IMG/VR virus record: IMGVR_UViG_3300008106_000007
Location: 1-40,681 of that record
Strand: one strand, 5' to 3'
Source: a virus
DNA: 40,681 nt
The notes under the pieces are model-generated. The model was not told the origin of the DNA, did no database searches, and saw only the letters and a list, made by a program, of their open reading frames with translations. The position numbers and the translations under genes are program-made. Positions 2,414-33,298 of the stretch are shown here, one piece after another (position 1 is the first letter of the stretch; every line of letters begins with the position of its first letter).

Positions 2414-3655
2414 ATGGAACCATTTGAAAAGTTTTTACAAACAAAAGGAATTACTTTAGACGCATTTAAAGCGTTAGAAGTTGAAAAACAAGCAGATATT
2501 CAAAATGAATATTTAGGACACATTGAAAAGCAATTGGAAAATTCGGTATCTAAAGAAACATTGGCTACTGAAATTCAAAAAGCTAAAGAAGGGATCTCCG
2601 AAGAGGTTGCAAAACAACTTTTAGACGCTAACAAAAGTGGTGAAAACGCAAACGAAACAGAACTTGTTAAATTCTTTAAAGAATCAGTTGATACTTACAA
2701 AGAAAACGAAAACGACAAACGTTACAATGTTAACACAACAATAAAAGCTGGCGCTTTAATGACTACTGCAAACGTTACGCCAAACGTTACAAATGGATTT
2801 TCTCCATTGTTCGGTAATTACATTGATACTGAACTTGGTTCTACTCCAAAACCAGACCTTTGTATTTTACCTTTAATTACTATTAAAAATCAGCCAGGAA
2901 CAGAGTCAATTTGGCACGTTTCAAGAGTTAGTGAAGAAGGAGATGCTGAATTTATTTCAGAGGGTGCATTGAAGCCATTAGCAAGCGCATCATGGGCTAC
3001 AACTAAAGAGCCAATAAAAGAATTAGCTGTTCGTTGGAAATTTACAAAAAGATTAATGAACCACGCCCCAAGTGTAGTAGTTGACTTTGCTGAACACGCA
3101 AACGAATTAATGGAACAAAAAATGGACGATGGGGCATTAACAGGAGATGGACTAGATAACAACTTAGATGGTATAACTAGTGTTGCTTCTGCTTTTGTTG
3201 TACCTACTGCTTTATCTGAATTTTACAAAGATGCTAATATTTGGGATGTTATTATGGCAGTTGCTACGCAAGTTCGTTTAGCTAACTTCAAAGGGCAACT
3301 TACAGCTGTATTAAATACTGTATGGGAGGCTAAAATGAAAGGATACAAAAATGCTGAGGGTGACTATATTGTGCCACCATTCGTTAGTCCTGATGGAACT
3401 AAAGTTGGTTCTATTAATGTTGTTTTTAATAACAAATTTCCTGACACTTACATTTTATTAGGAGATTTGAAAAAATTCAACTTAGTAATGGCAGAAGATG
3501 TTGCCTACGATGAGGGTTACGAAAATGATGATTTCTCTAAAAACTTAGTTTCTAAAAAATTAGAAGCGTTTATGGGAACATATATCAAAGCTGGCGATGC
3601 TGGTTCAATCGTTTATGATTCAATTGCTGATATTTTAACGGATATTGAAATTTAA
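2414..3655 (+). CDS. Major capsid protein, HK97 fold, with N-terminal scaffold (delta) region
   Basis: 413 aa. Residues 1 to about 100 are charged and helical, like the delta domain that serves as scaffold and is cut off during maturation. The rest follows the HK97-like pattern: an N-arm, a conserved SEGALKP segment near residue 177, a long spine helix (DFAEHANELMEQKMDDGALTGDG) and a compact C-terminal domain. The preceding protease supports maturation by cleavage, probably near residues 100-115. The segment TGDGLDNNLDGI is typical of Bacteroidetes phage capsids. Confidence 0.85.
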   Translation: MEPFEKFLQTKGITLDAFKALEVEKQADIQNEYLGHIEKQLENSVSKETLATEIQKAKEGISEEVAKQLLDANKSGENANETELVKFFKESVDTYKENENDKRYNVNTTIKAGALMTTANVTPNVTNGFSPLFGNYIDTELGSTPKPDLCILPLITIKNQPGTESIWHVSRVSEEGDAEFISEGALKPLASASWATTKEPIKELAVRWKFTKRLMNHAPSVVVDFAEHANELMEQKMDDGALTGDGLDNNLDGITSVASAFVVPTALSEFYKDANIWDVIMAVATQVRLANFKGQLTAVLNTVWEAKMKGYKNAEGDYIVPPFVSPDGTKVGSINVVFNNKFPDTYILLGDLKKFNLVMAEDVAYDEGYENDDFSKNLVSKKLEAFMGTYIKAGDAGSIVYDSIADILTDIEI

Positions 3656-4546: not shown

Positions 4547-5076
4547 TAATTGCAAATGCTTTAAAGAGATTATTTACTGGCGCAGTTGCAGATTGTACTT
4601 TTTTAGGTATTGAAAGACCAAATACCAGTATTCAATATTGGTACGGCGACCAAAAAGAGTTAATTTCGTGGATTACACAACGTAAAAATTTAGCTAATTA
4701 TCCGCTTGTTTGGTATGTTTTAAACGAATATACAGAATTTCAAGGGTGGTATGAAACAAATGCAAGACTTGTAATAATGCAAGATACACAGCTAAAACAG
4801 TTAAACGATTGGCGTACAGAAAATAGTTATGAAGGTGTTTTGGAACCAGTTTGGAATGTTATCCAAGATAAATTAACTACTAATGGTTATATTGAAGTTA
4901 TGGGAAGTTTTACGGATAGATTTAAACTAAAAGCAGAACCTAACTATGGTATAGCACCACAAGTAAATGACTTAAAAAACACTAACCCTACAAATGAAAA
5001 ATCTATAAATATAGATTTAATAGATTGTTTGGTAGTTGATTTTAAAATGAGAATAAAAGCAAAATGTATTAATTAA
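4543..5076 (+). CDS. Probable neck / tail-completion protein
   Basis: 177 aa. The pattern YPLVWYVL followed by a beta strand with RLVIMQDT fits neck or tail-terminator-like proteins that cap the tail tube at the head. It is coupled to the upstream connector by ATGA. The product is inferred from gene order and is not separable from other connector proteins by sequence alone. Confidence 0.5.
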   Translation: MIIANALKRLFTGAVADCTFLGIERPNTSIQYWYGDQKELISWITQRKNLANYPLVWYVLNEYTEFQGWYETNARLVIMQDTQLKQLNDWRTENSYEGVLEPVWNVIQDKLTTNGYIEVMGSFTDRFKLKAEPNYGIAPQVNDLKNTNPTNEKSINIDLIDCLVVDFKMRIKAKCIN

Positions 5077-5093
5077 ATTAAAAAATAAAAACT

Positions 5094-6020
5094 ATGTCAG
5101 TTTTAATAAATCAAAAAAATTGTCTTACTTCACGTAAGAATTTAGGATTACCAGATTGTATTATTCAAGAAGGTAGACTAACAGGTTTTATCCTTACTCC
5201 AAAGGGTTGGAGTATAGGATTAGATACAGAAACATTTGATAAAGAATATGTAAACGCTCAAATTCAATTAGGTAATTTTATTCCAGTATTAGGAGCTGTT
5301 GAAGTTATTAATAATACTCCAGAGGCAACTACAGAAGAATATGAAGGTGGGGTTATGTCGGTAGTTCGTAATGGATTGCCTCAATATGCGTTTAAATTCT
5401 TAAAAGGTGGCTGGAAATTCGCAAGTGCGTTATACACTTACAATTCATTTCAAGAGTATGATGTATTATTTGTATTTTCAAGCGGTGCAATTGCTGGAGC
5501 TACAAACGGAACAGCGTTTACATCTTTTGACTTAGGTATGTTGAACAATGGAACATATATGTTTACAAATGGATCTGCTTCTGCAAGCGTTACTTGTTCA
5601 ATGCAGTTAATTAACGAAACTCAATTCAATAGAGATGTGGCTATTTTAGATGCTTCTGTTTTGGATTTTTATGTTAATACTGACATTTTACCTATTACAG
5701 ATATTGTTTTAACAGGAACCGCTGATGCTTCTGATAATAAAATTTATGTTGAGGCTGTTTATGCAATTAATCAATCTACTCCATTAGGAGGAATAGAAAC
5801 TCCGAGCTTAAAATTATTTGTACAAGGTGTATCTGATACAATAGTTTCAGTAACTTACAACACTTTGACAGGAAAATACGAAATTGTACCAACCGCTACT
5901 TTAGGGTCTGGAGATAAAGTAGTTGTTCAATTATATGATTCTGTGGCTGTTGTTGATGTGGCAAAGATTGGAACTAAATATTACAAGGGTGCAACTCCAG
6001 AAATTACAGTTGTAGCGTAA
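5094..6020 (+). CDS. Major tail (tube) protein
   Basis: 308 aa, rich in Gly, Thr, Val and short beta segments, placed between neck genes and the tape-measure region where tail tube proteins lie. The C-terminal 90 residues (from about IVLTGTADASDN) could form an extra Ig-like or BIG-like beta domain, common on tube proteins. It is the last gene before a promoter-terminator element at 6040-6098, fitting high expression and a transcription break after the head/tube block. Confidence 0.65.
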   Translation: MSVLINQKNCLTSRKNLGLPDCIIQEGRLTGFILTPKGWSIGLDTETFDKEYVNAQIQLGNFIPVLGAVEVINNTPEATTEEYEGGVMSVVRNGLPQYAFKFLKGGWKFASALYTYNSFQEYDVLFVFSSGAIAGATNGTAFTSFDLGMLNNGTYMFTNGSASASVTCSMQLINETQFNRDVAILDASVLDFYVNTDILPITDIVLTGTADASDNKIYVEAVYAINQSTPLGGIETPSLKLFVQGVSDTIVSVTYNTLTGKYEIVPTATLGSGDKVVVQLYDSVAVVDVAKIGTKYYKGATPEITVVA

Positions 6021-6445: not shown

Positions 6446-6773
6446 CGAGTTTACAAAAGGAGAACGCCCAAATGGTAAAAAGATAGGGGAATATCGCAAT
6501 GCTGAATATGCTATCTTTAAACAACAAATAAACCCTTTAGCGAATGGTTATGTAGATTTATTACTAACAAGACAGTTTAGTAGTAAATTATTCGTTAGAA
6601 CGTTTGGTAGTGGCTTTATGTTTAACAGTACAGATAATAAAACAGGGTCTTTAATTGGTAAGTATGGAATTGATATAATGGGTTTAAATCAAGATTGGTT
6701 TAACAACAGACAAAGAAATATTTACAAGCCAGTTTTAGACTTTGAAATAAGTAGAATTTTAAATAAAAGATAA
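6318..6773 (+). CDS. Conserved tail-region protein overlapping the preceding gene
   Basis: 151 aa. The N-terminus (MKAISAKQMQLRLQQVATKSW) looks like a natural start, so the first 128 bp are coding in two frames together with 6110-6445. The middle has KGERPNGKKIGEYRN and PLANGYVDLLLTRQFSSKLFVR, a pattern seen in hypothetical proteins of Bacteroidetes phages located before tape-measure genes. Its stop overlaps the next start (TAATG). Function is unknown, probably tail assembly. Confidence 0.6.
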   Translation: MKAISAKQMQLRLQQVATKSWLENQVTQIVLSDQDKLKEEKINEFTKGERPNGKKIGEYRNAEYAIFKQQINPLANGYVDLLLTRQFSSKLFVRTFGSGFMFNSTDNKTGSLIGKYGIDIMGLNQDWFNNRQRNIYKPVLDFEISRILNKR

Positions 6774-7369
6774 TGCCAAAATATAACTCGATAGACACAA
6801 TTCCTGCTAAAGTATTCTTTGAAATATTAAAGAGTAAAAACTTTCAATTGCTAAAACCCAAACCAAAAGAAAAAGGATTAGAAGAACTTTTTATGTGTAT
6901 TTATGACGAATTTTTTATTAAGTCAGATAATCCAGAAGCTAACAGATATTTAGAATTAAACAAAGAAATATCTTTTTTGCAATACAAAATAGCCACTTTA
7001 AAACAGGCGTTACATTTTTACTTTTATAATCGCACAACTAAAGAAATGCGAGAATCGTTTGCTAAAAGTTTAAAAGACGGTTTTGGTATTGAATTAAATT
7101 TAGAAGCACCGTTTATTGACGAAGTACAGCGTGTTTTAAGTATTGAGTTAGGAATTATTGAGAACGATTTAAACATGGCAAAGATAGAATTTGATTATAT
7201 GGTTAATAAATGTAAAAACAAAGATTATGATTACTATGAAGAAATAGGGGTTTTAAGCCAAGTTTTACCAAATAACTCACTATTAAAAGAAGAAATGACT
7301 TTAGCTGTTTATGTATCTTTAGAAAAGTTAGCAAAAAAAGTAGTTGAACAACAAAATAAAAAGAAATAA
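6773..7369 (+). CDS. Tail-region protein, coiled, unknown function
   Basis: 198 aa, Lys/Glu-rich and helical, with heptad-like stretches and no cysteine cluster or membrane segment. It abuts the tape-measure gene (stop and start share a base). Such genes are often assembly chaperones or tape-measure partners; that is inference from position only. Confidence 0.5.
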   Translation: MPKYNSIDTIPAKVFFEILKSKNFQLLKPKPKEKGLEELFMCIYDEFFIKSDNPEANRYLELNKEISFLQYKIATLKQALHFYFYNRTTKEMRESFAKSLKDGFGIELNLEAPFIDEVQRVLSIELGIIENDLNMAKIEFDYMVNKCKNKDYDYYEEIGVLSQVLPNNSLLKEEMTLAVYVSLEKLAKKVVEQQNKKK

Positions 7370-10092
7370 TGGCAGAATTTATTGAATTTCTTTCAGCAAA
7401 TGCTTTAAAAGAACTTGAACTTGCTAACAAAGAATTAGTAACTATGGTTGCTAATGTTGACAATGTAGGTAAAAAGATGAAAAATATATCTACTCCGAGC
7501 GGTTCGGATAGTGCCATTAAATCATTAACAGACCAATACAAGCAACAAGAAAAAGTCATACAATCACTTCAACAAAAATTACAACGTGCAAGTGAACAAC
7601 AAGTGAAAAATGTAGAACGTACAAGAATTGCTGAATTAAAACTTGCTCAGGATAGAGAAAAAGCATTCGACAAATTTGAAAAAGGATATGCTAAAGAACA
7701 AAAACTATTAAACGCTTCTTTAAATGTTTATAATAAAACACAAAGACAATTAAATTTAGTTCAAACCGCTTACAATAATTTAGCAACTAGAAAAGAAAGA
7801 TATAATAATTTAAGTGCAACAGAAGAAATGCGTTTAAAAACGCTACAAACTTTAAGTGAAAAATACAATAACACTTTAAAGGCTGTTGATGCAACTGTTG
7901 GAAAGCATACAAGAAATGTAGGTAATTACGCAAGTGCTTTTAATCCTGTTAGTAATTCTGTTAATCAATTAACTAGAGAGATGCCAGCTTTTGCAAATAG
8001 TGTTCAAACGGGGTTTATGGCAATATCTAACAACTTGCCTATTTTCTTTGACGCTATGCAACAAGCAATAGCACAACAGAAAGAATTACAAGCACAGGGT
8101 AAACCTAGTAAAAATGCTTTACAAATATTAGCAGGCGGACTATTTACATTAGGTACTGCATTAAGTGTTGGAGTTACTTTATTAACTCTTTTTGGTCCAA
8201 AAATTGTTGAATTTATAGCAGGTTCAAAAGCTAAAAAAGAAGCAATTGAAGCAGAGAAAAAAGCATTAGAAGAAAAAAACCAAGCAGAAAAACAAGCATA
8301 CGAACAACAAGTACAATATGCTAGTTCAGAAATTAGCAGAAGTAAAATTTTATTAGAAACTGCAAAAAATGTTTCATTAAGCTATAAAGAAAGAGTAAAA
8401 GCAGTTAATGAGTTACAATCTCGTTATCCTGACTATTTAGGTAATTTAAGTAAAGAAGAAATATTAGCAGGTAAAACAGCAGATGCAGAATATCGTTTAA
8501 ATGATGCTTTAATGAAAAGAGCTATGTTTTTAGCTGTTAAAGACAAAATCGCAGAAGTAACTAAGAAATTAGTAGATTCTGAAATGGAATACGCTCAAAC
8601 AATAAATACTTCTACTGATGCAAATGAGTTATATGATATTCAACAAAATAAAAATGCTAAAACAAAAGGTAACTTAAGAATGCTTACTGAACAAGAAGCA
8701 GAAGGTATAAAAGGCAATACCATATTAGCAAATAAGTATAATGAAACATTAAAAAAAGAGGGTATGGCGTATTTAGACGCAAGAACTCGAAAAGCGCTAA
8801 AAAATGTTGAAACAAATAATGAATTACAAATATTATTTAAGTTATTAAATCAATATGCAAAATATGCTAATGTTGTAGTTGAAGATACAAAAAATACTAA
8901 AATAAATACAAAATCAATTAAAGATAATAATGATGCAAGAGAAAAAGTAAGATTTTCACTAGTTGGTTCTGTTGAATGGTTTGAAAAGTTAAAAAGTGCT
9001 TTAATTGAAGAACAAAGTCAGTTATCACAAAATAATGAAAAATGGAGTGAATATCAAAAAAGAATTGATACTGTTCAGGATTCAATTGACAAAATAAAAA
9101 ACGCTTATAAAGAATTAGAGGGTGTTTCTTTAGATTTAGGAGGTTCTGAATTTCTTACCGATGAAGATGGTGACGCATTAATGAAAGCTGGAGAAGAATT
9201 AAGAGCGTTATTAAAAGAGTTTAAACAAGGCTTTATAGACGACTTTTCAAATCAAAGTGGGTTTAGTGGTATTCTTGATATTTTATCAGGTGGTTTAGAT
9301 AAATTTGAGGGGGATGCGGTTTCAACAGCATTAGCAGTATCCGAAGCATTCCAACAAGCGTTTAATACTATTTCTGAATATTCAAATGCTAACTACGAGC
9401 AAATGTATCGTAATTTAAAACAGCAAAAAGATGTAGCAGTACTATTAACTGGGCAAAGCACAACGGCAAGGGAAGAAATAGAAAAACAATATGAAGAAAG
9501 ACGCAGAATAATACAAAGACGACAAGCGGAAAGTCAAAAGCGTTTAGCAATGTTTAATATTGTAACTGATACAGCACAAGCTATTTTAGCAACATTTGCA
9601 AAGTCAGGATTTCTAGAGGGATTGCCTTTAGCTATTGCAATGGGAGCAATCGGAGCAGTTCAGTTAGCAATGGTAGCAAATCAGCCAATACCAGCATTTG
9701 AAAAAGGAGGGATTCACGATGGCGGTTTAATGTTAGTTAATGATGGTAAAGGTTCTAACTATCAAGAAAAAGTAGTAACGCCAGATGGTAAAGTAATCGA
9801 GCCAAAAGGTAGAAATGTAGTAATGAATGCACCAAAAGGAACGCAAATTTTTACACACGACCAATGGCTAAATAATATTCTTTTAAGTAATGGAATTGAA
9901 GCAACTAATCAAACAATTGTAAAAGGTGGAATTTCTAAAGAAGAAATGCGTGACGTAATGTCACAGTTTGCGAATAAAGACAGTTATCATTTTAGCATTG
10001 ACGAGGGCGGAATAAACAAAACTATCATGCGAGGAACAAGTAAAACAAATATTTTAAATAGTAGATTAAGAATTAAATCAAACAATGTATAA
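7369..10092 (+). CDS. Tail tape-measure protein
   Basis: 907 aa. Residues 20-180 are coiled coil (Gln/Lys/Glu heptads). Hydrophobic segments lie near 225-290 (AGGLFTLGTALSVGVTLLTL) and 730-770 (TAQAILATFAKS, LPLAIAMGAIGAVQLA). The C-terminal region has the GGxxxGG-type pattern IHDGGLMLVNDGKG with a later FTHDQWL, typical of Bacteroidetes tape-measure proteins. It is the longest gene of the window; its length should set the tail length. It overlaps both neighbours by one base, as expected for a co-translated tail operon. Confidence 0.85.
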   Translation: MAEFIEFLSANALKELELANKELVTMVANVDNVGKKMKNISTPSGSDSAIKSLTDQYKQQEKVIQSLQQKLQRASEQQVKNVERTRIAELKLAQDREKAFDKFEKGYAKEQKLLNASLNVYNKTQRQLNLVQTAYNNLATRKERYNNLSATEEMRLKTLQTLSEKYNNTLKAVDATVGKHTRNVGNYASAFNPVSNSVNQLTREMPAFANSVQTGFMAISNNLPIFFDAMQQAIAQQKELQAQGKPSKNALQILAGGLFTLGTALSVGVTLLTLFGPKIVEFIAGSKAKKEAIEAEKKALEEKNQAEKQAYEQQVQYASSEISRSKILLETAKNVSLSYKERVKAVNELQSRYPDYLGNLSKEEILAGKTADAEYRLNDALMKRAMFLAVKDKIAEVTKKLVDSEMEYAQTINTSTDANELYDIQQNKNAKTKGNLRMLTEQEAEGIKGNTILANKYNETLKKEGMAYLDARTRKALKNVETNNELQILFKLLNQYAKYANVVVEDTKNTKINTKSIKDNNDAREKVRFSLVGSVEWFEKLKSALIEEQSQLSQNNEKWSEYQKRIDTVQDSIDKIKNAYKELEGVSLDLGGSEFLTDEDGDALMKAGEELRALLKEFKQGFIDDFSNQSGFSGILDILSGGLDKFEGDAVSTALAVSEAFQQAFNTISEYSNANYEQMYRNLKQQKDVAVLLTGQSTTAREEIEKQYEERRRIIQRRQAESQKRLAMFNIVTDTAQAILATFAKSGFLEGLPLAIAMGAIGAVQLAMVANQPIPAFEKGGIHDGGLMLVNDGKGSNYQEKVVTPDGKVIEPKGRNVVMNAPKGTQIFTHDQWLNNILLSNGIEATNQTIVKGGISKEEMRDVMSQFANKDSYHFSIDEGGINKTIMRGTSKTNILNSRLRIKSNNV

Positions 10093-13882: not shown

Positions 13883-13885
13883 GAT

Positions 13886-14371: not shown

Positions 14372-14373
14372 AT

Positions 14374-16703: not shown

Positions 16704-16705
16704 TT

Positions 16706-17308: not shown

Positions 17309-17745
17309 TTTACTTAGTTACGGCAATAACACTTTTTATTTTTTGGTATCTAAATAAGAAATCAAAAAATAATTTTTTCTATCAAGATGAAAAAGTAATA
17401 AGACAAAAGTTAAATCTTTGTTTAGAAGTGTGTAATGATTTTGAATGGTCGCCAGTCGATAAAATTAAATTAAGAATATCATTTGAACACTTTATTTTGA
17501 ATCCTAATGAGTTTAACGGAACAAGTGTTATAAATGATAATTGGGTAATAAAAGGTTTAGAGCCTGAAAGCGTAATTCACGATTACGATTGGATAACATC
17601 AAAAAGTTTAAAGCAATTATTAATATCGAATTTAGAGTATGTTAAAAGACTTAGAAAAAGAAATGTGAATTGGTTTTGGTGTTGGGTATTTATTTTTGTA
17701 AGTTTGAATATTGTAGGAATTTTTAAATCAATAAAATATATATAG
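17305..17745 (+). CDS. Membrane protein with N- and C-terminal TM segments
   Basis: 146 aa. Hydrophobic segments lie at about residues 2-17 (IYLVTAITLFIFWYL) and 122-142 (WFWCWVFIFVSLNIVGIF), with a charged soluble middle. It is the first of four small membrane genes before the endolysin. A lysis or superinfection-exclusion role is possible but cannot be chosen from sequence. Confidence 0.5.
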   Translation: MIYLVTAITLFIFWYLNKKSKNNFFYQDEKVIRQKLNLCLEVCNDFEWSPVDKIKLRISFEHFILNPNEFNGTSVINDNWVIKGLEPESVIHDYDWITSKSLKQLLISNLEYVKRLRKRNVNWFWCWVFIFVSLNIVGIFKSIKYI

Positions 17746-17747
17746 TT

Positions 17748-18185
17748 ATGGCAGTATTAAATGGGTGTTCACTTTGCAGACCAGCAAGCTACATAAAAAG
17801 CAAATTAGAAGATAATAAAAGACCGTTTTTGGTTTATTCAATTTTCGTAATACTTTTAATAGAGTGGTTCAGTATTATTTATTTGAAATTATTTCACGGT
17901 GTTACAAATGTAACAACTGATTTTTACGATGCTAAAATAGCTCCATTATTGACTAATTTAGCGTTGTTTATTTTGTTGTTTTCTCTATTCCTTTGGAAAG
18001 ATAGGTTACATTTTTGCTTTAGAAAATCAGCAACTACTTTTTATTTATCATGTTACTACTTGTTTAATGCAATAGCTGTATTATTTTGCCTTAACGCATC
18101 GATTTACTATGAAGTTATCGCTTATGGTTTTTTAGGTGTTGCAACGTTCTTATTTTTTGTTTCATTGTTAAATAGTAGAAAATGA
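17748..18185 (+). CDS. Four-TM membrane protein
   Basis: 145 aa with four predicted membrane helices (about 27-48, 65-85, 94-115, 121-141) and a short cytoplasmic N-terminus carrying CSLCRP and basic residues. Overlaps the next gene (ATGA at 18182-18185). No holin family is recognised; the location next to the endolysin keeps that possibility open. Confidence 0.5.
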   Translation: MAVLNGCSLCRPASYIKSKLEDNKRPFLVYSIFVILLIEWFSIIYLKLFHGVTNVTTDFYDAKIAPLLTNLALFILLFSLFLWKDRLHFCFRKSATTFYLSCYYLFNAIAVLFCLNASIYYEVIAYGFLGVATFLFFVSLLNSRK

Positions 18186-18394
18186 GAATAAGCACAAGAA
18201 GAAAGTTTTTAATATTTATAGGACTATTTATTATGCTTTTACAAACATATAAATATACTACCAACAAATTATTTGATTGGAAAATTGAATTAGTTGTTTT
18301 TATTATTGGATTAGCTTTATTTATAGGCGACCCTAAATATTTGCTAAACTTGTTTAAATCAGTAATAACGAGAAAAAATGAAAGGAATGAGTAA
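18182..18394 (+). CDS. Two-TM small membrane protein
   Basis: 70 aa. A basic N-terminus (RISTRRKF) is followed by two hydrophobic segments (about 9-24 and 33-50), with a basic C-terminus. Size and topology would fit a class II holin or antiholin. Its 3' end overlaps the next ORF by 17 bp. Confidence 0.45.
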   Translation: MRISTRRKFLIFIGLFIMLLQTYKYTTNKLFDWKIELVVFIIGLALFIGDPKYLLNLFKSVITRKNERNE

Positions 18395-20309: not shown

Positions 20310-20337
20310 GTTAGTTACGTGTATATAATAGTTATGC
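20310..20337 (-). repeat. Terminal attC-like half-site
   Basis: Minus strand GCATAACTATTATATACACG just after the stop of 20332-20679. The core matches that cassette's own 5' end (GTTATGCGTTGTTG against GTTATGCGTTATTG). No second arm was found downstream, so the site looks truncated at the end of the array. Confidence 0.45.
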
Positions 20338-20679
20338 GTTATTGTAACGTGCAACAAACAACTTATATGTTTCATTAAAACTTCCTTGTGTTTCATCCAT
20401 TTCAGTTGCTAATCTATCAGATAAGTCTGTATCTATTTCGCAAACCTTAAAGAAGTCCAGAGCACAACATTCACGTTTTATATTTCTGTCAAAGTTTGGA
20501 ATATCTTCTTCCGTTTCTTTGTCTGTATCGTAATATTCTGAACAACTAGCTTCTTTTGCATAAACAGCACCATAATCGCTATCTCCAACTTCTTCGTGTC
20601 TATAAAATGAACAATTAGAACAACAACGCATAACAGTCGTTTTGTCTAATGGCTCGGTTTGGGTATTATCTGAAATCAT
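20332..20679 (-). CDS. Cassette: Cys-rich protein with site-encoded leader
   Basis: 115 aa from the ATG in the loop of the upstream site. The first 16 residues (MISDNTQTEPLDKTTV) are encoded by the distal arm of the attC-like site. The cassette part starts with an in-frame ATG inside the core (GTT-ATG-CGT) and reads MRCCSNCSFYRHEEVGDS. Three Cys near the start and a later RECC could bind a metal. Starts at 20679 (with leader) and 20631 (99 aa, no leader) are both possible. No known family. Confidence 0.6.
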   Translation of the reverse strand: MISDNTQTEPLDKTTVMRCCSNCSFYRHEEVGDSDYGAVYAKEASCSEYYDTDKETEEDIPNFDRNIKRECCALDFFKVCEIDTDLSDRLATEMDETQGSFNETYKLFVARYNNA

Positions 20680-20762: not shown

Positions 20763-21062
20763 CTATTTTGCGAAATGACCTAAATAGGCGTTTATTTTAA
20801 AATAAAACACTCCATTATCTAACACTCTTTTTGGGAATTCCGAAACTCTACTACCTACTAACTTTTTAACAATTCTTGCTTTTAAAATATCTTTTTGATT
20901 TACAAGACCAACTTGTGCATTAAAGTCAACAATATACATATCAGCACCTTTTTTCTTGTAATAAAATTGACAATCGTACCAATGTAGCTTTTTTTGTTTT
21001 GAAGAAAAACAGCTACTAACAGCGTGTATAAAAAATGGCTTTATTTGGCTTAATTTAAACAT
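20763..21062 (-). CDS. Cassette: unknown protein with site-encoded leader
   Basis: 99 aa. The first 15 residues (MFKLSQIKPFFIHAV) come from the loop and distal arm of the upstream site. The cassette begins at GTT-AGT-AGC and has no ATG until residue about 41 (ADMYIVDF), so the leader probably provides the start. The C-terminal part (YIVDFNAQVGLVNQKDILKARIVKKL, split) looks like a small beta/alpha fold. The TAG stop lies next to the proximal core of the downstream site. No family recognised. Confidence 0.6.
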   Translation of the reverse strand: MFKLSQIKPFFIHAVSSCFSSKQKKLHWYDCQFYYKKKGADMYIVDFNAQVGLVNQKDILKARIVKKLVGSRVSEFPKRVLDNGVFYFKINAYLGHFAK

Positions 21063-21643: not shown

Positions 21644-21964
21644 TTATCGGAACGACACCTCTTCGTAATAACATTTGGTTATATTTTGAAGACTATTCCA
21701 CCTATCAAAGTGCTTTTCAATGTGTTCGTCTGCAATCCATTTCATTCCAAATTTATCTGTTTCAAATTGCTTGTAGTGGTCTTTCCATTTTTTCAGCAGC
21801 TTATTAAACTTGGTGCAGTATTTGGTTGCAGTTGATTTTTTATTGGTAACAAAAACCACAGCACTATAACAGTCATCATACGAGCCACCATAATATCTAA
21901 CCAAATAATAACTGCCACTAACACGGGTTTGGCAAAATGGCTGTTCAGTAATTTTATTTGACAC
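21644..21964 (-). CDS. Cassette: unknown protein, GTG start within the site loop
   Basis: 106 aa from GTG at 21964, in the loop of the upstream site after TTTAAATTAATAACAA. The leader MSNKITEQPFCQTRV is site-encoded; the cassette part begins SGSYYLVRYYGGSYDDCYSA. No ATG exists in frame near the cassette start; TTG at 21904 is the other candidate. The protein is Tyr/Lys/Trp-rich with alternating strands and helices. No family recognised. Confidence 0.55.
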   Translation of the reverse strand: MSNKITEQPFCQTRVSGSYYLVRYYGGSYDDCYSAVVFVTNKKSTATKYCTKFNKLLKKWKDHYKQFETDKFGMKWIADEHIEKHFDRWNSLQNITKCYYEEVSFR

Positions 21965-22870: not shown

Positions 22871-23003
22871 GCATAACAGCCACTACAACGGATTTGGGCA
22901 TTGAGCTTAATGGAAAAATGGTCTTGTATTTGAGATGATTTGGCTAATCCGAAAATAGGGCTTAATTTAGTCCCAAACCCGGTGTAGTGCCAGAACGTTA
23001 CAA
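22871..23003 (-). repeat. Complete attC-like site; core overlaps a stop codon
   Basis: Proximal arm AACGTTCTGGCACTACACCG (then GGTTTGGG) pairs with the distal arm, complement AACAGCCACTACAACGGATT (then TGGG). The TAA stop of 22998-23351 is part of the core GTAACG. Confidence 0.8.
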
Positions 23004-23351
23004 GATATTTTTCACGACTACTTCGTTAATGTCATATTCGCCCAAAACAGTACCTATTAAACATTTTTTTACACCATCAATAAATCTAAATTTAAAATAC
23101 AAAATAGATCCTTTGTCAGTAATTGTTAGTTCTTTAACTAATAGCAAATCATCTTTCTTTCTTGTAACCTTTAAACACTCCCAATGTTTAGTCTCATAAT
23201 TTCCGGGAAATGCACCTATTCCAATTTGTTTAGGCGGTTTTTCTCGAATCAACATTGTTCTGTTAAAAACTTCCTCAATTTCAAAATCTAAAACATCTTG
23301 TAACTGCGGTTTTGACGCATTGCTTTGTTTAGTGGAATTATCGTTTTTCAT
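22998..23351 (-). CDS. Cassette: unknown protein with site-encoded leader
   Basis: 117 aa from ATG at 23351. Leader MKNDNSTKQSNASKPQL is encoded by loop and distal arm; the cassette starts at residue 18 (QDVLDFEIEEVFNRTML). Cassette ends match (5' GTTACAAGATGTTTT; complement of 3' GTTACAAGATATTTT), placing the boundary inside the reading frame. The only later in-frame Met is residue 33. Beta-rich, with NYETKHWECLKV in the middle. No known family. Confidence 0.6.
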   Translation of the reverse strand: MKNDNSTKQSNASKPQLQDVLDFEIEEVFNRTMLIREKPPKQIGIGAFPGNYETKHWECLKVTRKKDDLLLVKELTITDKGSILYFKFRFIDGVKKCLIGTVLGEYDINEVVVKNIL

Positions 23352-23422
23352 GTTCGTTTAGTTTAAAATATTAATATTAGTTTTCATAAGTCGCAACGAC
23401 GACAAAGCCGAGAAGCGTTACC
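23297..23422 (-). repeat. attC-like site, distal arm inside the 22998 gene
   Basis: Proximal arm TAACGCTTCTCGGCTTTGTC (then GTCGTTGC) pairs with the distal arm, complement TAACTGCGGTTTTGACGCAT (then TGC). Pairing is less regular than at neighbouring sites but arm order and core are the same. Confidence 0.65.
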
Positions 23423-23630
23423 AGCCATACACATAATCAGTACAGTTGGGAGCGTCTAAATCGACAATTATTCTTGGGTCGTTTATTTTTGCATTACAAA
23501 CTTTTGCTGTTCCTCCGTTTTCATTAACAATCTTAACGGTATAATTTTTACATTTAAGGCATTTATAAGTACGGCTGGTAACAGCCAGTTTTGCGTCATT
23601 GCCTTGATTTTCTATTGAACTTTTGTGCAT
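23418..23630 (-). CDS. Cassette: zinc-ribbon protein with site-encoded leader
   Basis: 70 aa. Leader MHKSSIENQGNDAKLAV comes from the upstream site; the cassette part starts at TSRTYKCLKCKNYTV. Cys24 and Cys27 (CLKC) plus Cys45 and Cys63 could bind zinc. The cassette part has no start codon before the CLKC pair, so the leader ATG is needed. Resembles small zinc-ribbon hypothetical proteins; no specific role can be given. Confidence 0.65.
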   Translation of the reverse strand: MHKSSIENQGNDAKLAVTSRTYKCLKCKNYTVKIVNENGGTAKVCNAKINDPRIIVDLDAPNCTDYVYGW

Positions 23631-24216: not shown

Positions 24217-24314
24217 GGTAACAGCACCTAACAAAAATGGCTGCTATCAAGCCTTGGTTAATAAATTGAAGTTTTGTTTATGCAGCCACTTCTGTTAGCT
24301 GCGGCACGTTAGTG
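24217..24314 (-). repeat. Complete attC-like site, about 98 bp
   Basis: Proximal arm AACGTGCCGCAGCTAACAGA (then AGTGGCTGC) pairs with the distal arm, complement AACAGCACCTAACAAAAATG (then GCTGC). One of the clearest pairings in the array. Confidence 0.8.
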
Positions 24315-24320
24315 GCAATA

Positions 24321-25040
24321 CTACCATTCGTTTCCAAATAGACATTTTTGCTCTGTTTTAGGCTTTTGAACTATTCCCATTGCAATACTGAAAATAGTTT
24401 TACCTGCTTCATAATCTACCAAGTTTCTGGCAATTTTATCTCTCCTTTGTTCTCCTTTGTATTTGTAAAAATCGTAATCGTGAAATTTGCATAATACATC
24501 AACTTCATTTTTCGCCTTGCTTATTATTCCGTTTCCTTCGCTTCGTTCTCCAATGTCATTCGGTAAATTAAAGTTTGTCCAATATAAGTGCCTACCTCGT
24601 TTTTTTGCAGGTATCAATGGCTCATAAAATGGTATTACATTTTCAACTACATATTTTCCTTCAAAATAATTATCTAATAAAACTACTTCTTCATAAAGTT
24701 TAAAGTCCGGGTAAACCGCATCGCAATTTTCTCTATTCTTTTGGCTAAACCTTACTCTTGAATGTGAAGGGCAAGGCGGTGAAGTCCATATAAAATCAAA
24801 ATTCATATAGTTTTTTAATAGATATTCGTGAGCATCAGCCACAATTACCGTATCGTTTGGAAATCTTTCTTGATATAATTTTGCAAGTTCTTCATCCCAT
24901 TCAACTGCTGTAACTTCAATATTTGCCACTTCATCCCATTTGTAACGATTACCTCCTAAACAAGCGTATAGGTTTAAAACCCGTACTGCCTGTAACAGTG
25001 GTTTTGCGTCATTGGGGGCTTTTGTGCTATCTATAATCAT
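24321..25040 (-). CDS. Cassette: C5-cytosine DNA methyltransferase with site-encoded leader
   Basis: 239 aa. Transfers a methyl group from SAM to cytosine C5 in DNA. Motif I is VLNLYACLGGNRYKW (21-35), motif IV is TSPPCPSHSR with catalytic Cys90, motif VI is ENV (133-135), and a motif X-like stretch DYEAGKTIFSIAMGI lies near the C-terminus. The 16-residue leader MIIDSTKAPNDAKPLL is encoded by the attC-like site. No start codon lies between the core and motif I, so translation must begin in the site. Small for the family. No partner restriction enzyme is seen, so it may protect phage DNA from host restriction; that role is inference. Confidence 0.85.
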   Translation of the reverse strand: MIIDSTKAPNDAKPLLQAVRVLNLYACLGGNRYKWDEVANIEVTAVEWDEELAKLYQERFPNDTVIVADAHEYLLKNYMNFDFIWTSPPCPSHSRVRFSQKNRENCDAVYPDFKLYEEVVLLDNYFEGKYVVENVIPFYEPLIPAKKRGRHLYWTNFNLPNDIGERSEGNGIISKAKNEVDVLCKFHDYDFYKYKGEQRRDKIARNLVDYEAGKTIFSIAMGIVQKPKTEQKCLFGNEW

Positions 25041-25123
25041 TTGTGCTTAAATTAAAATTTGTACTATCAATCGGCTTTAGTGCTGGAAATCCCCAACGAA
25101 CGCAAAGCCCCGAACCGTTAGCA
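24990..25123 (-). repeat. attC-like site, distal arm inside the methyltransferase gene
   Basis: Proximal arm AACGGTTCGGGGCTTTGCGT (then TCGTTGGGG) pairs with the distal arm, complement AACAGTGGTTTTGCGTCATT (then GGGGG). The loop holds AATTTTAATTTAAGCACAAATG, the methyltransferase start (shown here as two parts: AATTTTAATTTAAG and CACAAATG). Confidence 0.8.
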
Positions 25124-25520: not shown

Positions 25521-25811
25521 TTAAAAGAACTCGTTAATCATAGCATCTACGGTTGGTTTTAAGAACCTGAAACACTCTCTTTTGTGTTCAGCAATATCAT
25601 CTTCATTTATTCCAAGCCAAAAGATAATCGGCAAAGGAATTTCAAACTCTTTTGATATTGTTTCTAATACGCTAATATTTGGAGTTTTTGCTCCAGTTTC
25701 AATTTGTGATAAGTAAGTTTGAGTAATACCTATCAATTTTGCGAACTCCGACTGATTTAATCGTGGTGTTCGTTCTTTTCTGATGTTTCTAATTGCTATT
25801 CCTACATTCAT
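25521..25811 (-). CDS. XRE-family transcriptional regulator
   Basis: 96 aa. A helix-turn-helix spans residues 4-62: NQSEFAKLIGITQTYLSQIETGAKTP contains the turn and recognition helix, followed by SVLETISKEFEIPL. The C-terminal 35 residues (EHKRECFRFLKPTVDAM) form a family-specific extension. It has its own consensus promoter (25833-25862) inside the cassette, with repeated AAGATAAA-like words around it that could be operators. Could repress itself or phage early promoters; target not shown. Confidence 0.85.
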   Translation of the reverse strand: MNVGIAIRNIRKERTPRLNQSEFAKLIGITQTYLSQIETGAKTPNISVLETISKEFEIPLPIIFWLGINEDDIAEHKRECFRFLKPTVDAMINEFF

Positions 25812-30340: not shown

Positions 30341-30475
30341 TATTAACGTTCTCTAGCTTGCACGACTTGCGTGCCTAAACACAGACGAACACAAAAATTA
30401 ATCAAACTTTAAATTTAAAAATTATGTTTACAAACAAAAACTTATTTAGCAATGTGTGCAAGATGGTGTTATTTG
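30341..30475 (+). repeat. attC-like site, distal arm inside the 30424 gene
   Basis: Proximal arm AACGTTCTCTAGCTTGCACG (then ACTTGC) pairs with the distal arm, complement AACACCATCTTGCACACATT (then GC). The loop holds AAACTTTAAATTTAAAAATT directly before the ATG of 30424. Confidence 0.75.
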
Positions 30476-30696
30476 CAGTTTTTTTATCGCTTTTTACGTC
30501 TTGTTCTGAATGGGAAAATAGTTATGATTTTAGAAATTATTTAAGAGATAAACACCCTTATTCTGAAATAATAAAAATAGATTTAGGTTATAATTTTACG
30601 TACCAAGTAAATGATACAATTAATGGCAAAATTCTAATTTATCATTCAGGATTAGAAAAAGCAAGCGTAAAGTTTCATTGTGTAAATTGCCACTAA
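30424..30696 (+). CDS. Cassette: small lipoprotein whose start lies in the site
   Basis: 90 aa from ATG at 30424, or 77 aa from the in-frame ATG at 30463 inside the distal arm. The cassette begins at the core as VLFAVFLSLFTSCSEW, a lipoprotein signal without its own Met; the lipobox is LFTSC. The Met and positive charge (NVCKM) come from the site. The mature part is about 60 aa, ending in CVNCH. Probably anchored in the periplasm or outer membrane; it could alter the host surface. Confidence 0.65.
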   Translation: MFTNKNLFSNVCKMVLFAVFLSLFTSCSEWENSYDFRNYLRDKHPYSEIIKIDLGYNFTYQVNDTINGKILIYHSGLEKASVKFHCVNCH

Positions 30697-30819
30697 CCTT
30701 TACAGCTTTGCGAGGTTGGGAATGTACTCCCAAACTTTCGATTAATCACAAATTTTAAAAGTACAAACAAGACTTTAAATTAAACAATTAACCCAACTAT
30801 TGTATAGCCGTTGTTAGCA
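30691..30819 (+). repeat. Complete attC-like site
   Basis: Proximal arm AACCTTTACAGCTTTGCGAG (then GTTGGG) pairs with the distal arm, complement AACAACGGCTATACAATAGT (then TGGG). The loop holds GACTTTAAATTAAACAATT, with ATT where other loops have ATG. Confidence 0.75.
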
Positions 30820-30840
30820 GTAGTTAGAATACACAAAACT

Positions 30841-31083
30841 ATGTCAGGATGCACATATAACCCATTAGAAAATAAAGTAGGTATTTTAGTTAGTAAAAAA
30901 AGATGTATTATTAATTCAAACTCAATTTTAATTAAAAAAGGAGTTTCTAAAAAAAATGCAATCATAAAAATAAAAGGTTTGGTAATACCTAAAGAAATAA
31001 ACACTAAAATTTATCAATGTTTATTTGTTGATGCAAAAGATGTTGAGCATATTCCGTTTTTTAACGACAATGTTTCTGAATAA
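30841..31083 (+). CDS. Cassette: small basic protein of unknown function
   Basis: 80 aa from ATG at 30841 (MSGCTYNPLENKVGILVSKK), preceded by a typical A-rich start region. An N-terminal Cys pair region and beta-rich middle (IIKIKGLVIPKEINTKIYQC). The cassette is flanked by a 32-bp inverted repeat (30792-30823 and 31081-31112, one mismatch). No family recognised. Confidence 0.55.
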   Translation: MSGCTYNPLENKVGILVSKKRCIINSNSILIKKGVSKKNAIIKIKGLVIPKEINTKIYQCLFVDAKDVEHIPFFNDNVSE

Positions 31084-31087
31084 TTAC

Positions 31088-31122
31088 TGCTAACAACGGC
31101 TATACAATAGTTGTTGTCAGCA
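31088..31122 (+). repeat. Minimal attC-like site, 35 bp
   Basis: TAACAACGGCTATACAATAG then TTGTTGTCAG forms one short hairpin: AACAAC/GTTGTT and CTAT/ATAG. The loop region of the longer sites is missing entirely. The distal core is GTCAGCA, a variant of GTTAGCA. Confidence 0.65.
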
Positions 31123-31141
31123 GTTATAATACTAAATTAAG

Positions 31142-31300
31142 ATGAAAAAAGAAAAAGATTTTACGGCAGATATTGAACAAGTTCGGTTAGATTTATTAGA
31201 AATTGAAAAACAAATTGAAATAATAAAAGTTAGACTTGAAGAAAAACAAAAACACAAAGATACTTTACAGTATTTTCTTGAAACTATAGATTTTGAATAA
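31142..31300 (+). CDS. Cassette: small coiled-coil protein
   Basis: 52 aa (starts MKKEKDFTADIEQVRLDLLE), a single charged coiled coil. Own ATG after ACTAAATTAAG. Cassette ends match (GTCAGCAGTTATAAT against GTTTGCAGTAATTAT). Similar in type to the coiled coils at 21154 and 22474. Function unknown. Confidence 0.55.
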   Translation: MKKEKDFTADIEQVRLDLLEIEKQIEIIKVRLEEKQKHKDTLQYFLETIDFE

Positions 31301-31302
31301 TT

Positions 31303-31330
31303 ACTGCAAACGTTCGAGTGCTTTAAAAAC
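31303..31330 (+). repeat. attC-like half-site (proximal arm only)
   Basis: ACTGCAAACGTTCGAGTGCT; the expected distal arm before 31338 is missing, and the next cassette's 5' core (expected GTTATGTGAG) is absent. A deletion probably removed the loop and distal arm. Confidence 0.45.
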
Positions 31331-31337
31331 AGAAATT

Positions 31338-31568
31338 ATGATAACTGAAATAAAAGAAAAAATATTTTTAGCAAATATGGATTATGGTTTTGGCAACACT
31401 GAATCTTGGTTAGAAGTTGTAAAAAGAATTGACAATAAAGGAAATGAATATTTAGTTTTTTGTAGGGGTAAACACCACGTACACGCTTGGCATTGCAATA
31501 CTATTAATATCAATGATAGTAGGATTATTGAATTAAAAGAAAAATCTTCTTTTGAAGACGAAATGTAA
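31338..31568 (+). CDS. Cassette: unknown small protein
   Basis: 76 aa from ATG at 31338 (MITEIKEKIFLANMDYGFGN), chosen over an upstream in-frame start because of the A-rich context. Beta-rich, with FCRGKHHVHAWHCNTI near residue 45 containing three His and two Cys that could bind metal. Its 3' end (CTCACATAACG) matches the site before 21154 on the other array. Function unknown. Confidence 0.5.
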   Translation: MITEIKEKIFLANMDYGFGNTESWLEVVKRIDNKGNEYLVFCRGKHHVHAWHCNTININDSRIIELKEKSSFEDEM

Positions 31569-31575
31569 CAATCTC

Positions 31576-31712
31576 ACATAACGTTTTTCATCTTGTAGTC
31601 AGGTGCGGAAAATTGAATACAGTCCACAAAAATAATCAATAAATTTAAAATTAAAAAACAATGATTGCAGAAAATAACCAAACCCCGCACTTGCCACAAA
31701 ATGCTGTTAAAT
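31576..31712 (+). repeat. attC-like site, distal arm inside the 31661 gene
   Basis: Proximal arm AACGTTTTTCATCTTGTAGT (then CAGGTGCGG) pairs with the distal arm, complement AACAGCATTTTGTGGCAAGT (then GCGG). The loop holds AAATTTAAAATTAAAAAACA before ATG. Proximal core ACAATCTCACATAACG equals the one at 21140 on the other strand. Confidence 0.75.
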
Positions 31713-32056
31713 GCAGGTTTTTTGGTCAATATTTAGAACAAATCGTAGCTAAAGAAACAATCTATGTAAATTCTCCAAAGATTAATACTACAATTGTTTT
31801 ATTAATAAATCAATTGTCAAACTATCATTTAGAATTAAAACCACTTTCAAAAATTACTGATGAAGATGCAATGTCTATGTTTAGGGGAATTGTAAGTAAT
31901 TATGTAGATGCCAAGCAATTTTTAGACGATTATAAAGCAATTGGATTTTTAGAACAAAGCGAAGTTGACTTTTTACGCTCAAAAGGTTACGCAGTTCCAT
32001 TTATGAATTATTCAGTTGAAGATTTAATTTCATTCGGTTGGGTGCGGTTGGTTTAA
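31661..32056 (+). CDS. Cassette: unknown protein with site-encoded leader
   Basis: 131 aa. Leader MIAENNQTPHLPQNAV is site-encoded (compare MISDNTQTEPLDKTTV at 20679). The cassette part starts KCRFFGQYLEQIVAKETIYV and continues as an alpha/beta protein ending FMNYSVEDLISFGWVRLV. No start codon follows the core for a long stretch, so the leader ATG is probably used. No family recognised. Confidence 0.6.
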   Translation: MIAENNQTPHLPQNAVKCRFFGQYLEQIVAKETIYVNSPKINTTIVLLINQLSNYHLELKPLSKITDEDAMSMFRGIVSNYVDAKQFLDDYKAIGFLEQSEVDFLRSKGYAVPFMNYSVEDLISFGWVRLV

Positions 32057-32144
32057 ACTTGTCAATTTAGTAGTAACTTAATAAATAACAAAAAAATGAA
32101 TAATAACGCAGAAACTCGGCAATCAGCTATACAACTTGTTAGCG
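32052..32144 (+). repeat. Weak attC-like site, distal arm inside the 32096 gene
   Basis: Cores TTTAAAC (32052-32058) and GTTAGCG (32138-32144). Arms AACTTGTCAATTTAGTAG and, complemented, AACAAGTTGTATAGCTGATT pair only partly. Supported by the match of the following cassette's two ends (GTTAGCGGTT against GTTAGCAGTC). Confidence 0.5.
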
Positions 32145-32296
32145 GTTCGTTGCAAGATATTCAGGAAATAATAGAATTTTTGCAATGGGCATTTAGAAAG
32201 ATAGACAAAGGTGATACACCAGAAGAAACTGTTAGAATGTTGTTAATGAATAGAGCAAAAATTGACAATATAAAGTTCGATAGCAATGACTGCTAA
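32096..32296 (+). CDS. Cassette: small helical protein with site-encoded leader
   Basis: 66 aa. Leader MNNNAETRQSAIQLV is site-encoded; the cassette part is SGSLQDIQEIIEFLQWAFRK and on, a helical, acidic domain. The TAA stop lies in the next proximal core region. No start codon lies between core and SGSLQD. Function unknown. Confidence 0.55.
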   Translation: MNNNAETRQSAIQLVSGSLQDIQEIIEFLQWAFRKIDKGDTPEETVRMLLMNRAKIDNIKFDSNDC

Positions 32297-32423
32297 CGTT
32301 TGTAGCCTTGTGCTGGTGGCTTGAATCAAGACCATTGCCGACAAAAATAAAACAATGATTAAGAATATCCGAGTCATTTCGGACACAAAACCATATGCCA
32401 CTAGCTCAAGACTAATGTTAGTG
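32291..32423 (+). repeat. Complete attC-like site
   Basis: Proximal arm AACGTTTGTAGCCTTGTGCT (then GGTGGC) pairs with the distal arm, complement AACATTAGTCTTGAGCTAGT (then GGC). The loop has AAAAATAAAACAATG, a start region with ATG at 32355 whose 47-codon frame reads through the core and ends inside the acyl-carrier gene in another frame. Confidence 0.8.
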
Positions 32424-32498
32424 GCAGTTAAAATTCACACAAAATATGAAACCATTAAACGATTATCAAAAGAAACAAGTAAGATTAGTATTGTCTGA
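32355..32498 (+). other. Leader-type ORF starting in a site loop, out of frame with the next gene
   Basis: 47 codons starting MIKNIRVISDTKPYATSS. It starts in the loop like the true fused leaders and passes through the distal arm, but runs 53 bp into 32446-32691 in a different frame. It shows that a loop start is kept even where the cassette has its own ATG. Whether it is translated is unknown. Confidence 0.3.
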
Positions 32499-32691
32499 TA
32501 AATTAGGATTTGATTTAGAAGATGTAGTAGATGAAGCAGAATTGTACAACGAGTTAGGAATGGATAGTTTAGATGCTATTGAGCTATTAATGGAATTTGA
32601 AGAAATGTTTAATGTTTCTATTCCTGATGCAGAAGCCGAAAAAGTAGTTAAAGTTTCGGATATATACGATTGCTTGATTAATTGCCACTAA
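32446..32691 (+). CDS. Cassette: acyl carrier protein
   Basis: 81 aa, full ACP length. GMDSLDAIELLMEFEEMF carries the DSL motif, with Ser41 as 4'-phosphopantetheine attachment site. Four-helix pattern and strong acidity (pI low) fit bacterial ACPs (VRLVLSDKLGFDLEDV at helix 1; IPDAEAEKVVKVSDI at the end). It holds acyl chains during fatty acid or related synthesis and needs a host phosphopantetheinyl transferase. An ACP is unusual in a phage. Both cassette ends match at 12 of 13 bases. Confidence 0.85.
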   Translation: MKPLNDYQKKQVRLVLSDKLGFDLEDVVDEAELYNELGMDSLDAIELLMEFEEMFNVSIPDAEAEKVVKVSDIYDCLINCH

Positions 32692-32781
32692 CGTTTTGCG
32701 TGTATACGAGGTACGCCAAACGATAAATTTAAAATTATAAACAAATGCTTGTAGGCGTATCTTGTATATACGCTGTTAGGC
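32686..32781 (+). repeat. Complete attC-like site
   Basis: Proximal arm AACGTTTTGCGTGTATACGA (then GGTACGCC) pairs with the distal arm, complement AACAGCGTATATACAAGATA (then CGCC). The loop has ATAAATTTAAAATTATAAAC, then ATG at 32745; its frame (MLVGVSCIYAVRHS) stops just after the core, at 32789. Confidence 0.8.
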
Positions 32782-32799
32782 ACAGTTAAATTAACGAAG

Positions 32800-33075
32800 A
32801 TGGAATTAGAAACAAACGAACTTATCAGCCCACTTTTGGAGCAGATAGAAAAAGAGTGTGATGATTTAAAAGCATTTATTAAAGGTGGGGATTTCCCTTA
32901 CCACAAATCATATTATTACAATAGAGTAGTGAAACATGCATCTGCAATGCTTTTATTGGCAGGGGAAATAAAGGCAATACATAAATTGCAAGACCACACA
33001 ATAACAGAGAACGAATTTACTTCTCCAAAAGAGGAATTGATAAAGGGATTGTCTGATTGTAGGGTGGACACTTAA
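32800..33075 (+). CDS. Cassette: small helical protein
   Basis: 91 aa (starts MELETNELISPLLEQIEKEC), helical and acidic, with a middle YHKSYYYNRVVKHASAMLLL that could form the second helix of a hairpin. No enzyme motif. Cassette ends match (GTTAGGCACAGTTAA against GTTAGACACAATTAA). Function unknown. Confidence 0.55.
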   Translation: MELETNELISPLLEQIEKECDDLKAFIKGGDFPYHKSYYYNRVVKHASAMLLLAGEIKAIHKLQDHTITENEFTSPKEELIKGLSDCRVDT

Positions 33076-33079
33076 TTGT

Positions 33080-33211
33080 GTCTAACGGTAGGGTATTGCC
33101 GAAGTTGGGGCTTTTAACCACTGAACTCTATTTGAAAAACAAAACTTTAATAATATGCAGACAGATTCTAAAAAGCACAAAAAACCCACTGACGCAAATA
33201 ATGTGTTAGCA
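33080..33211 (+). repeat. attC-like site, distal arm inside the 33155 gene
   Basis: Proximal arm AACGGTAGGGTATTGCCGAA (then GTTGGGG) pairs with the distal arm, complement AACACATTATTTGCGTCAGT (then GGG). The loop has AAAACTTTAATAATATG. Last site of the rightward array. Confidence 0.7.
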
Positions 33212-33298
33212 GCAGGACAAAAAATGTCGCAACTTTCTTTAAACACTATTTTAAAAATGTGCGAAAAACTAAATATTAACCTTGAAATTAAATTGTAG
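33155..33298 (+). CDS. Short ORF with leader, remnant of an HTH-type protein
   Basis: 47 aa. Leader MQTDSKKHKKPTDANNV is site-encoded; the rest (LAAGQKMSQLSLNTILKMCE then KLNINLEIKL) resembles the C-terminal end of XRE regulators (SLxTLLKICEALNVSLxEL). It follows the last site and has no 3' core of its own. It may be the remains of the gene that was interrupted when the array arose, or a truncated cassette. It ends 3 bp before the backbone gene at 33302. Confidence 0.45.
   Translation: MQTDSKKHKKPTDANNVLAAGQKMSQLSLNTILKMCEKLNINLEIKL

Follow-up and report, generated by a model that had tools for sequence, protein, structure and literature searches.

The window analysed here, a stretch of 40,681 nt of viral DNA, contains an ORF for a C5-cytosine DNA methyltransferase (24321..25040, minus strand; 239 aa; stop TAG at 24323-24321) whose start codon, ATG 25040, lies inside a palindromic attC-type site. 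The best-supported reading, to which sequence comparison leads us to give a probability of roughly 80%, is that the methyltransferase is a cassette of an integrase-less integron-type array and is translated from the ATG in the attC loop as a leader fusion. The phage would be Muminvirus-like and of the Flavobacterium type, and its array would be of the integron type without an integrase. In gene direction, the mobile unit would run from an outer core (AA|C) through the attC-type hairpin, the inner core (GTTA) and the gene to a final core (AA|C), and the gene would be inverted compared with canonical integron cassettes, with the attC on its 5' side. The large A-rich loop would double as a translation-initiation region. 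Bacteroidota ribosomes, which do not rely on Shine-Dalgarno pairing, would start at ATG 25040, translate the 3' arm as PNDAKPLL and the core as QAVR, and so reach motif I; the resulting enzyme would carry a leader of 16-20 disordered residues. In vivo, initiation would then take place at the loop ATG.

The site spans 128 nt (24993..25120, minus strand), from the outer core TAACG at 25120 to the inner core TGTTA ending at 24993. In the predicted DNA fold its outer (left) arm, TAACGGTTCGGGGCTTTGCGTTCGTTGGGG (25091..25120, minus strand), pairs with the inner (right) arm, CCCCAATGACGCAAAACCACTGTTA (24993..25017, minus strand), which is translated as PNDAKPLL. The loop start region (25038..25060, minus strand) consists of an A-rich initiation region and the ATG (25040-25038). 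As expected of an attC, this imperfect palindrome folds in single-stranded form and has the ends AAC ... GTT. It has the AAC/GTT ends and the TAACA/CGTTA polarity, while the strict 7-letter boxes RYYYAAC/GTTRRRY are unmatched. A covariance model built from an alignment of 29 sites identified 157 sites in 66 loci (viral, window and bacterial) and matched the window site with 98.7 bits (E 2e-15), this site being itself a member of the model. The stem has 17 bp, with compensatory changes at 15 pairs among the 29 aligned sites. The structural claim rests on this covariation because the z-score of the single-sequence fold of the window site (-0.67) is not significant. Strand preference in the thermodynamic fold was weak, the sense strand being more stable at 20 of the 29 sites (p = 0.015).

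The core reads GTTACAG (7 nt) and is followed by GCA GTA CGG and then by motif I, which therefore begins exactly three codons past the core, as the first-pass annotation had stated. Its observation that no ATG, GTG or TTG lies between the core and motif I is likewise borne out by the sequence. The same annotation regarded the gene as having no start codon of its own; this holds outside the site, but a standard ATG is present at 25040 in the site loop and is the sole in-frame ATG before motif I. The N-terminus of the ORF is MIIDSTKAPNDAKPLLQAVR-VLNLYACLGG. Leader residues 1-16, MIIDSTKAPNDAKPLL, are encoded by the site (24993..25040, minus strand), and residues 1-13 of the ORF read MIIDSTKAPNDAK.

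Translation initiation in Bacteroidota is independent of Shine-Dalgarno sequences and uses A-rich start regions. The composition of the loop start regions fits this pattern, with A at 0.57 and G at 0.07; the start regions of the structural genes of this phage have 0.56 and 0.06, respectively, and the genome has an A content of 0.37. About 90% of the loop start regions have A at -12/-13, and the loop ATG is mostly found 45-57 nt before the end of the core. The unpaired fraction is 0.65 in the start region vs 0.15-0.31 in the arms.

The codon straddling the core in the window is CTG, a weak potential start, and translation could instead begin there (at ATG or GTG in relatives), giving a protein M-L-Q-A-V-R-motif I and making the loop ATG incidental. 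CTG, ATG or GTG is found at this position in all 17 methyltransferase units counted (ATG in six), and the leader would be nearly as short as in free-standing homologues. We nevertheless consider a core start unlikely, since NTG before TTA is a feature of the site that recurs at 105 of 106 other sites in any gene frame, and since 18 of the 47 loop-started genes, being in the other frame, lack this codon, as does the relative in hemulen6-1 and stinky9-1. A core start would furthermore leave unexplained why the arm is open back to the loop ATG. Fusion from the loop, as proposed in the first-pass annotation, is most likely the case here and in many other cassettes; that the enzyme can only be made in this way goes too far, as the core CTG (ATG or GTG in some relatives) is a possible second start for genes in frame 0 (xxG TTA).

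Homologues were collected from 80 viral loci, and additional cassette-borne copies were found with a pattern of the core plus the gene start; units were counted as distinct when they were <97% identical over 110 nt. By this comparison, the arrangement goes well beyond coincidence. Nearly all non-cassette homologues have an ATG that precedes motif I by a few codons, typically in the form MK-(I/V)LNLYACLGG, whereas the cassette-borne homologues lack such an ATG, some of them carrying ATG or GTG exactly at the core. In all ~20 distinct cassette-borne units the frame is open from the loop ATG through the inner arm and the core to motif I. About ten unlike N-termini are found among these units, the leaders being MIIDSTKAPNDAKPLLQAVR, MIINTNVDTTTEALPFAKPMLQAVR, MSNEAQNGNFAKPMLAPVR, MIDRNTNVQTTDEALAFAKPLLQAVR, MLTTEKITDEALAFAKPMLAPVR, MIDKSSIGLLNGNFAKPMLAPVR, MNTNVDTKTETPTCCNVLLAPVR, MQKVENIDETPAFAKPVLQAVR, MLIEEPNSHFAKPVLQAVR and others. 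Two lineages (L039/L040 and L111) have lost the recognisable outer arm and kept the leader. A start of the gene's own between the core and motif I could be rejected for every distinct cassette-borne unit, save for the site-intrinsic NTG. A different cassette type has the same core followed by CAGTACGGGTT; many of its copies have a stop and then their own ATG, and these have no loop ATG in that frame. A bacterial MAG contig (nzgw417) also has the methyltransferase cassette twice (L082:581-699 and 2748-2865), and the two copies differ in hairpin and leader.

The continuous frame also bears on the idea that the loop ATG opens a short leader peptide that clears the attC hairpin, with the enzyme made by termination-reinitiation, as has been proposed for the attC ORFs and the attI1 ORF-11 of class 1 integrons. 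Short attC ORFs that aid translation of the next cassette have been described (PMC8876359), and an open loop ATG is also carried by 22 of the 35 sites whose following gene has its own ATG. Yet neither a stop nor a restart codon occurs between the loop and motif I, and each of the distinct units keeps the frame unbroken, which makes this mechanism highly improbable for the methyltransferase.

The link between loop ATG and start-less genes extends to the site family as a whole. We examined frames open for at least 45 codons past the core and without their own ATG within 45 nt, using short frames as controls (130 unique sites). An open loop ATG was present for 48 of 57 start-less long frames vs 45 of 249 control frames (Fisher p = 4e-21, a nominal value as the sequences are related). 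Frame 0 (xxG TTA) was used 29 times and frame 2 (GTT Axx) 18 times, while frame 1 was never used. The loop-started genes include the window enzyme, Dcm-like and N4/N6-type methyltransferases and one lipoprotein. The window gene had been put forward as the clearest single proof of site-initiated translation, which overstates its weight, the evidence being comparative.

The window has 19 sites and no Phage_integrase match, in agreement with the definition of a CALIN (at least two attC and no integron integrase nearby). On the minus strand, the neighbouring sites 23709-23579 (ORF 23630..23418) and 23420-23301 (ORF 23351..22998) both have a loop start that reads through the core. Loop starts were further found on this strand for the gene 21964..21644 (site 22037-21919; start GTG), the gene 21062..20763 (site 21143-21017) and the gene 20679..20332 (site 20758-20631). 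A divergent second array (30344..33298, plus strand) has loop-started ORFs at 30424..30696 (site 30344-30471), 31661..32056 (site 31579-31709) and 33155..33298 (site 33083-33208), all on the plus strand, and also has sites before ORFs with their own ATG.

Some other cassettes of the window have features of their own. For the lipoprotein at 30424-30696 (plus strand), the n-region of the signal peptide, MFTNKNLFSNVCKM, is site-encoded, and the hydrophobic part and the lipobox (LFTSC) are gene-encoded. An acyl carrier protein, an unusual phage cargo, is encoded by the cassette at 32446-32691 (plus strand; NCBIfam NF002148, above cut-off). One cassette is flanked by an inverted repeat of 33 nt (30794-30826 and 31081-31113; 97% complementary) made up of two half-sites in opposite orientation. 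The region of a cassette for an HTH (HipB/RstR-like) regulator (25521-25811, minus strand) has 94% DNA identity to the cultured Flavobacterium phages hemulen and lillamy; apart from this region, megablast gave no match for the rest of the array.

Judged by its motifs and predicted fold, the ORF product is a compact C5-cytosine DNA methyltransferase. SAM-binding motif I, VLNLYACLGG, comprises residues 21-30 (24951..24980, minus strand), and motif IV, P-P-C, comprises residues 88-90 with the catalytic cysteine C90 (24771..24779, minus strand). Motifs I, IV (SPPC) and VI (ENV) are invariant or nearly so among 47 relatives, with L22, N23, L24, Y25, G29, and G30 of motif I and P88, P89, and C90 of motif IV invariant in all 47 sequences. 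The ORF matches Pfam PF00145 (6.3e-9; 36.1 bits, cut-off 22) over residues 20-99 only, and PHROG 363 (4.7e-15). The AlphaFold2 model of the enzyme has a pLDDT of 81, and residues 1-15, which are encoded within the site, mostly have pLDDT < 50 and are thus predicted to be disordered. The structural neighbours found with Foldseek include DNMT3A (TM 0.56) and M.HhaI (TM 0.54) among many SAM methyltransferases. The window enzyme shares motifs I, IV, and VI and the SAM-methyltransferase fold with the PF00145 enzymes (Dcm/M.HhaI/DNMT), but it is very small, measuring about 219 aa from motif I onward, its target-recognition region is short, its Pfam match spans the N-terminal part only, and it has a site-encoded N-terminal leader.

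The enzyme may be active, although a C5-type motif set is not in itself proof of this. A rival view takes the cassette in the window to be decaying or silent, with an open frame that survives as a relic. The ends of the window cassette are no longer complementary, and the window has no integrase; against decay, the invariant motifs are intact, the ORF is full-length, and full-length relatives with 76% identity share the same N-terminus. A relic is therefore an improbable explanation of the open frame. Anti-restriction is a plausible use of the enzyme, which may methylate the phage DNA against host restriction. Cultured Flavobacterium phages (Nilsson et al., PMC7077304) lend indirect support, which concerns methyltransferase genes of this sort in general and not the present enzyme in particular.

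The borders of the cassette were located by comparing methyltransferase genes that are about 95% identical and found in different contexts. The 5' flank past the outer TAAC and the 3' sequence past the final AAC are at background (~50%), and the upstream hairpins of these genes are 62-97% identical. Integron cassettes have complementary ends. The distal end in relatives of the window cassette, TATTGCCTGTAAC, is the complement of the cassette start, GTTACAGGCAGTA, and the ends are complementary in most relatives. As the conserved block includes the hairpin and the cassette ends are complementary, the hairpin and the ATG appear to be part of the gene's own unit on its 5' side. The two ends of the window copy, whose distal end is TATTGCCACTAAC (24308..24320, minus strand), mismatch (GTTACAGGCA vs TGCCACTAAC), and the distal TGCCACTAAC is of a type seen in other cassettes of the window. 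In the site that follows the methyltransferase (24294-24311, minus strand), two outer cores are found 14 nt apart (TAACGTGCCGCAGCTAAC), perhaps as what is left of a cassette that was partial or had been excised.

The first-pass annotation placed the start in the preceding site. It does lie in the hairpin 5' of the gene, but this hairpin does not simply belong to the neighbour, as conservation continues up to the outer TAAC and the sequences flanking the unit on either side are unrelated. A start borrowed from the upstream neighbour is thus ruled out as a general rule, also in view of the opposite orientation of the host arrays. Hairpin and gene do not always travel together. The hairpin of L004 is 98% identical to that of the window and its gene 78%, while L009 and L140 share a 96% identical gene and a 62% identical hairpin. 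This partial decoupling points to additional exchange at the inner core or to conversion, and to speak of one fixed unit of hairpin and gene would be too simple. It is possible, though somewhat doubtful, that the attC is an exchangeable start module, its loop carrying the initiation region and the ATG owing to the inversion of the genes, in which case hairpins would be swapped independently of the gene at the inner core with the frame kept, and start-less genes would circulate with interchangeable N-termini.

The gene lies on the site strand in a ratio of 235:15 in the viral contigs vs 6:88 in Flavobacteriaceae genomes, and the usual though not strictly defining integron rule, by which a gene precedes its attC and shares its orientation, does not apply in the viral contigs. 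Read in the direction opposite to the phage genes, the sites have the TAACA...CGTTA polarity that the canonical aadA7 attC has in the direction of its own gene. From the strand ratios and the aadA7 polarity, the phage cassettes are therefore inverted relative to the attC. The site family was found in 106 of 199 Flavobacteriaceae genomes (match at E <= 1e-4), and chromosomal arrays of the same hairpin family are present in G158, G053, G100, G217, and G061. The window site at 22874..23000 (minus strand) is 86.7% identical to a chromosomal attC of G158. The phage array and the chromosomal arrays thus share a hairpin family, but the chromosomal genes are oriented opposite to the site and none of the 13 tested starts in the loop. 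Long chromosomal arrays were seen on G158 contig C27 (L167:4276-5208 and 6046-18319), G061:C2, G100:C18, G053:C31 and G058:C13.

Tyrosine recombinases are encoded beside the arrays in G158, G061, G100, G053, and G058. The G158 recombinase scores 208 bits vs NF040815, 'site-specific tyrosine recombinase/integron integrase' (cut-off 220), and 197 bits vs TIGR02249 (cut-off 265), the latter match being broken over about 55 profile positions. No bona fide IntI scored above the TIGR02249 cut-off in the 12 genomes searched. Arrays with XerA/IntI-like recombinases just under the cut-offs and an IntI match in two pieces could possibly represent an integron type that standard finders would miss. A single Phage_integrase match was obtained in 26 related records, and the phage cassettes may be mobilised by a host-encoded integron-type recombinase.

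These arrays also bear on whether the hairpins could be transcriptional or RNA-processing elements between genes and not recombination sites. The hairpins do lie at gene borders and fold as RNA. The site family, however, forms chromosomal arrays in Flavobacteriaceae, some adjoining XerA/IntI-like tyrosine recombinases, the cassettes have sharp borders with unrelated flanks and ends that are complementary as in integrons, and other phage attCs recombine with IntI1 (PMC9892861). We regard such a role in place of recombination as very improbable.

The nearest terminase to that of the window phage is from Muminvirus (39.5% identity), and the proposed loop start can be followed in cultured phages. 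In lillamy9-1, mumin6-4, and hemulen6-1, a loop ATG is the annotated start of seven out of ten methyltransferase CDSs, these annotated starts being predictions. The relative of the window enzyme in hemulen6-1 (3584..2838) and stinky9-1 uses the other permitted frame, with the N-terminus MTKKLNQEQQLNKHAVTGSVYK-ILNLYACLGG and no NTG at the core. The predicted leader MTKKLNQEQQLNK would belong to the methyltransferase of hemulen6-1, hemulen9-1, and stinky9-1, which share the same anatomy. The genes at mumin6-4 5762..4920 (L176) and hemulen6-1 7499..6657 (L177), both on the minus strand, encode the same type of enzyme and have the same upstream sequence. Both stem arms differ between the two, while the ATG, the N-terminal residues MQK(S/T)LFENE and the frame are kept, and at the sequence level this pair is a natural test of stem against coding constraint. 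The Baltic Flavobacterium phages (Muminvirus/Lillamyvirus, PMC7077304) are related to the window phage, and the methyltransferase genes of three isolates include these predicted loop starts; the paper describing them makes no mention of palindromes, hairpins, attC or integrons.

CALINs are already known from phages, as are their methyltransferase cargo and the functioning of their attCs (Qi et al., 2023, PMC9892861). These attC clusters without an integrase were reported in virulent phages, among them the Polaribacter phage P12002L, which carries two DNA methyltransferases and in which divergent attC directions were noted; IntI1 used five of the six attCs that were tested. Those arrays and the present one are alike in being integrase-less attC arrays with DNA methyltransferase cargo, one of them in a phage of a flavobacterium. 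The term 'start codon' is absent from that paper, and its phage section is silent on translation starts inside attC. As our covariance model found no site in P12002L and TJE1, the present site type differs from theirs. Probing the phage collection with VCR gave no match. A closer precedent for translation inside a recombination site is found in class 1 integrons, where short attC ORFs and the attI1 ORF-11 aid cassette translation (reviewed in PMC8876359). In both cases translation would be initiated inside an integron recombination site; the class 1 examples are described as termination-reinitiation or coupling, whereas here the site would supply the start of a continuous fusion, for many genes and in an inverted cassette. 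In the literature that could be searched, to which preprints and most subscription papers did not belong, we found only the leader-ORF idea and no attC loop that an inverted cassette gene must use as its start region. The attC as an obligatory, inverted start module therefore appears to be new.

The finding would give a recombination site a second job, as the same DNA would fold for the recombinase and encode both the start region and the N-terminal residues of a protein. How stem pairing is traded off against reading frame becomes directly testable, and this can be done now because the same anatomy is present in cultured phages. The ACID annotation rule permits an overlap between ORF and attC of at most 15 bp (PMC2674596), and rules that allow so little overlap would mis-start or miss such genes. 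For the phages themselves, the finding suggests a route by which they may gain anti-restriction methyltransferases from integron-type arrays.
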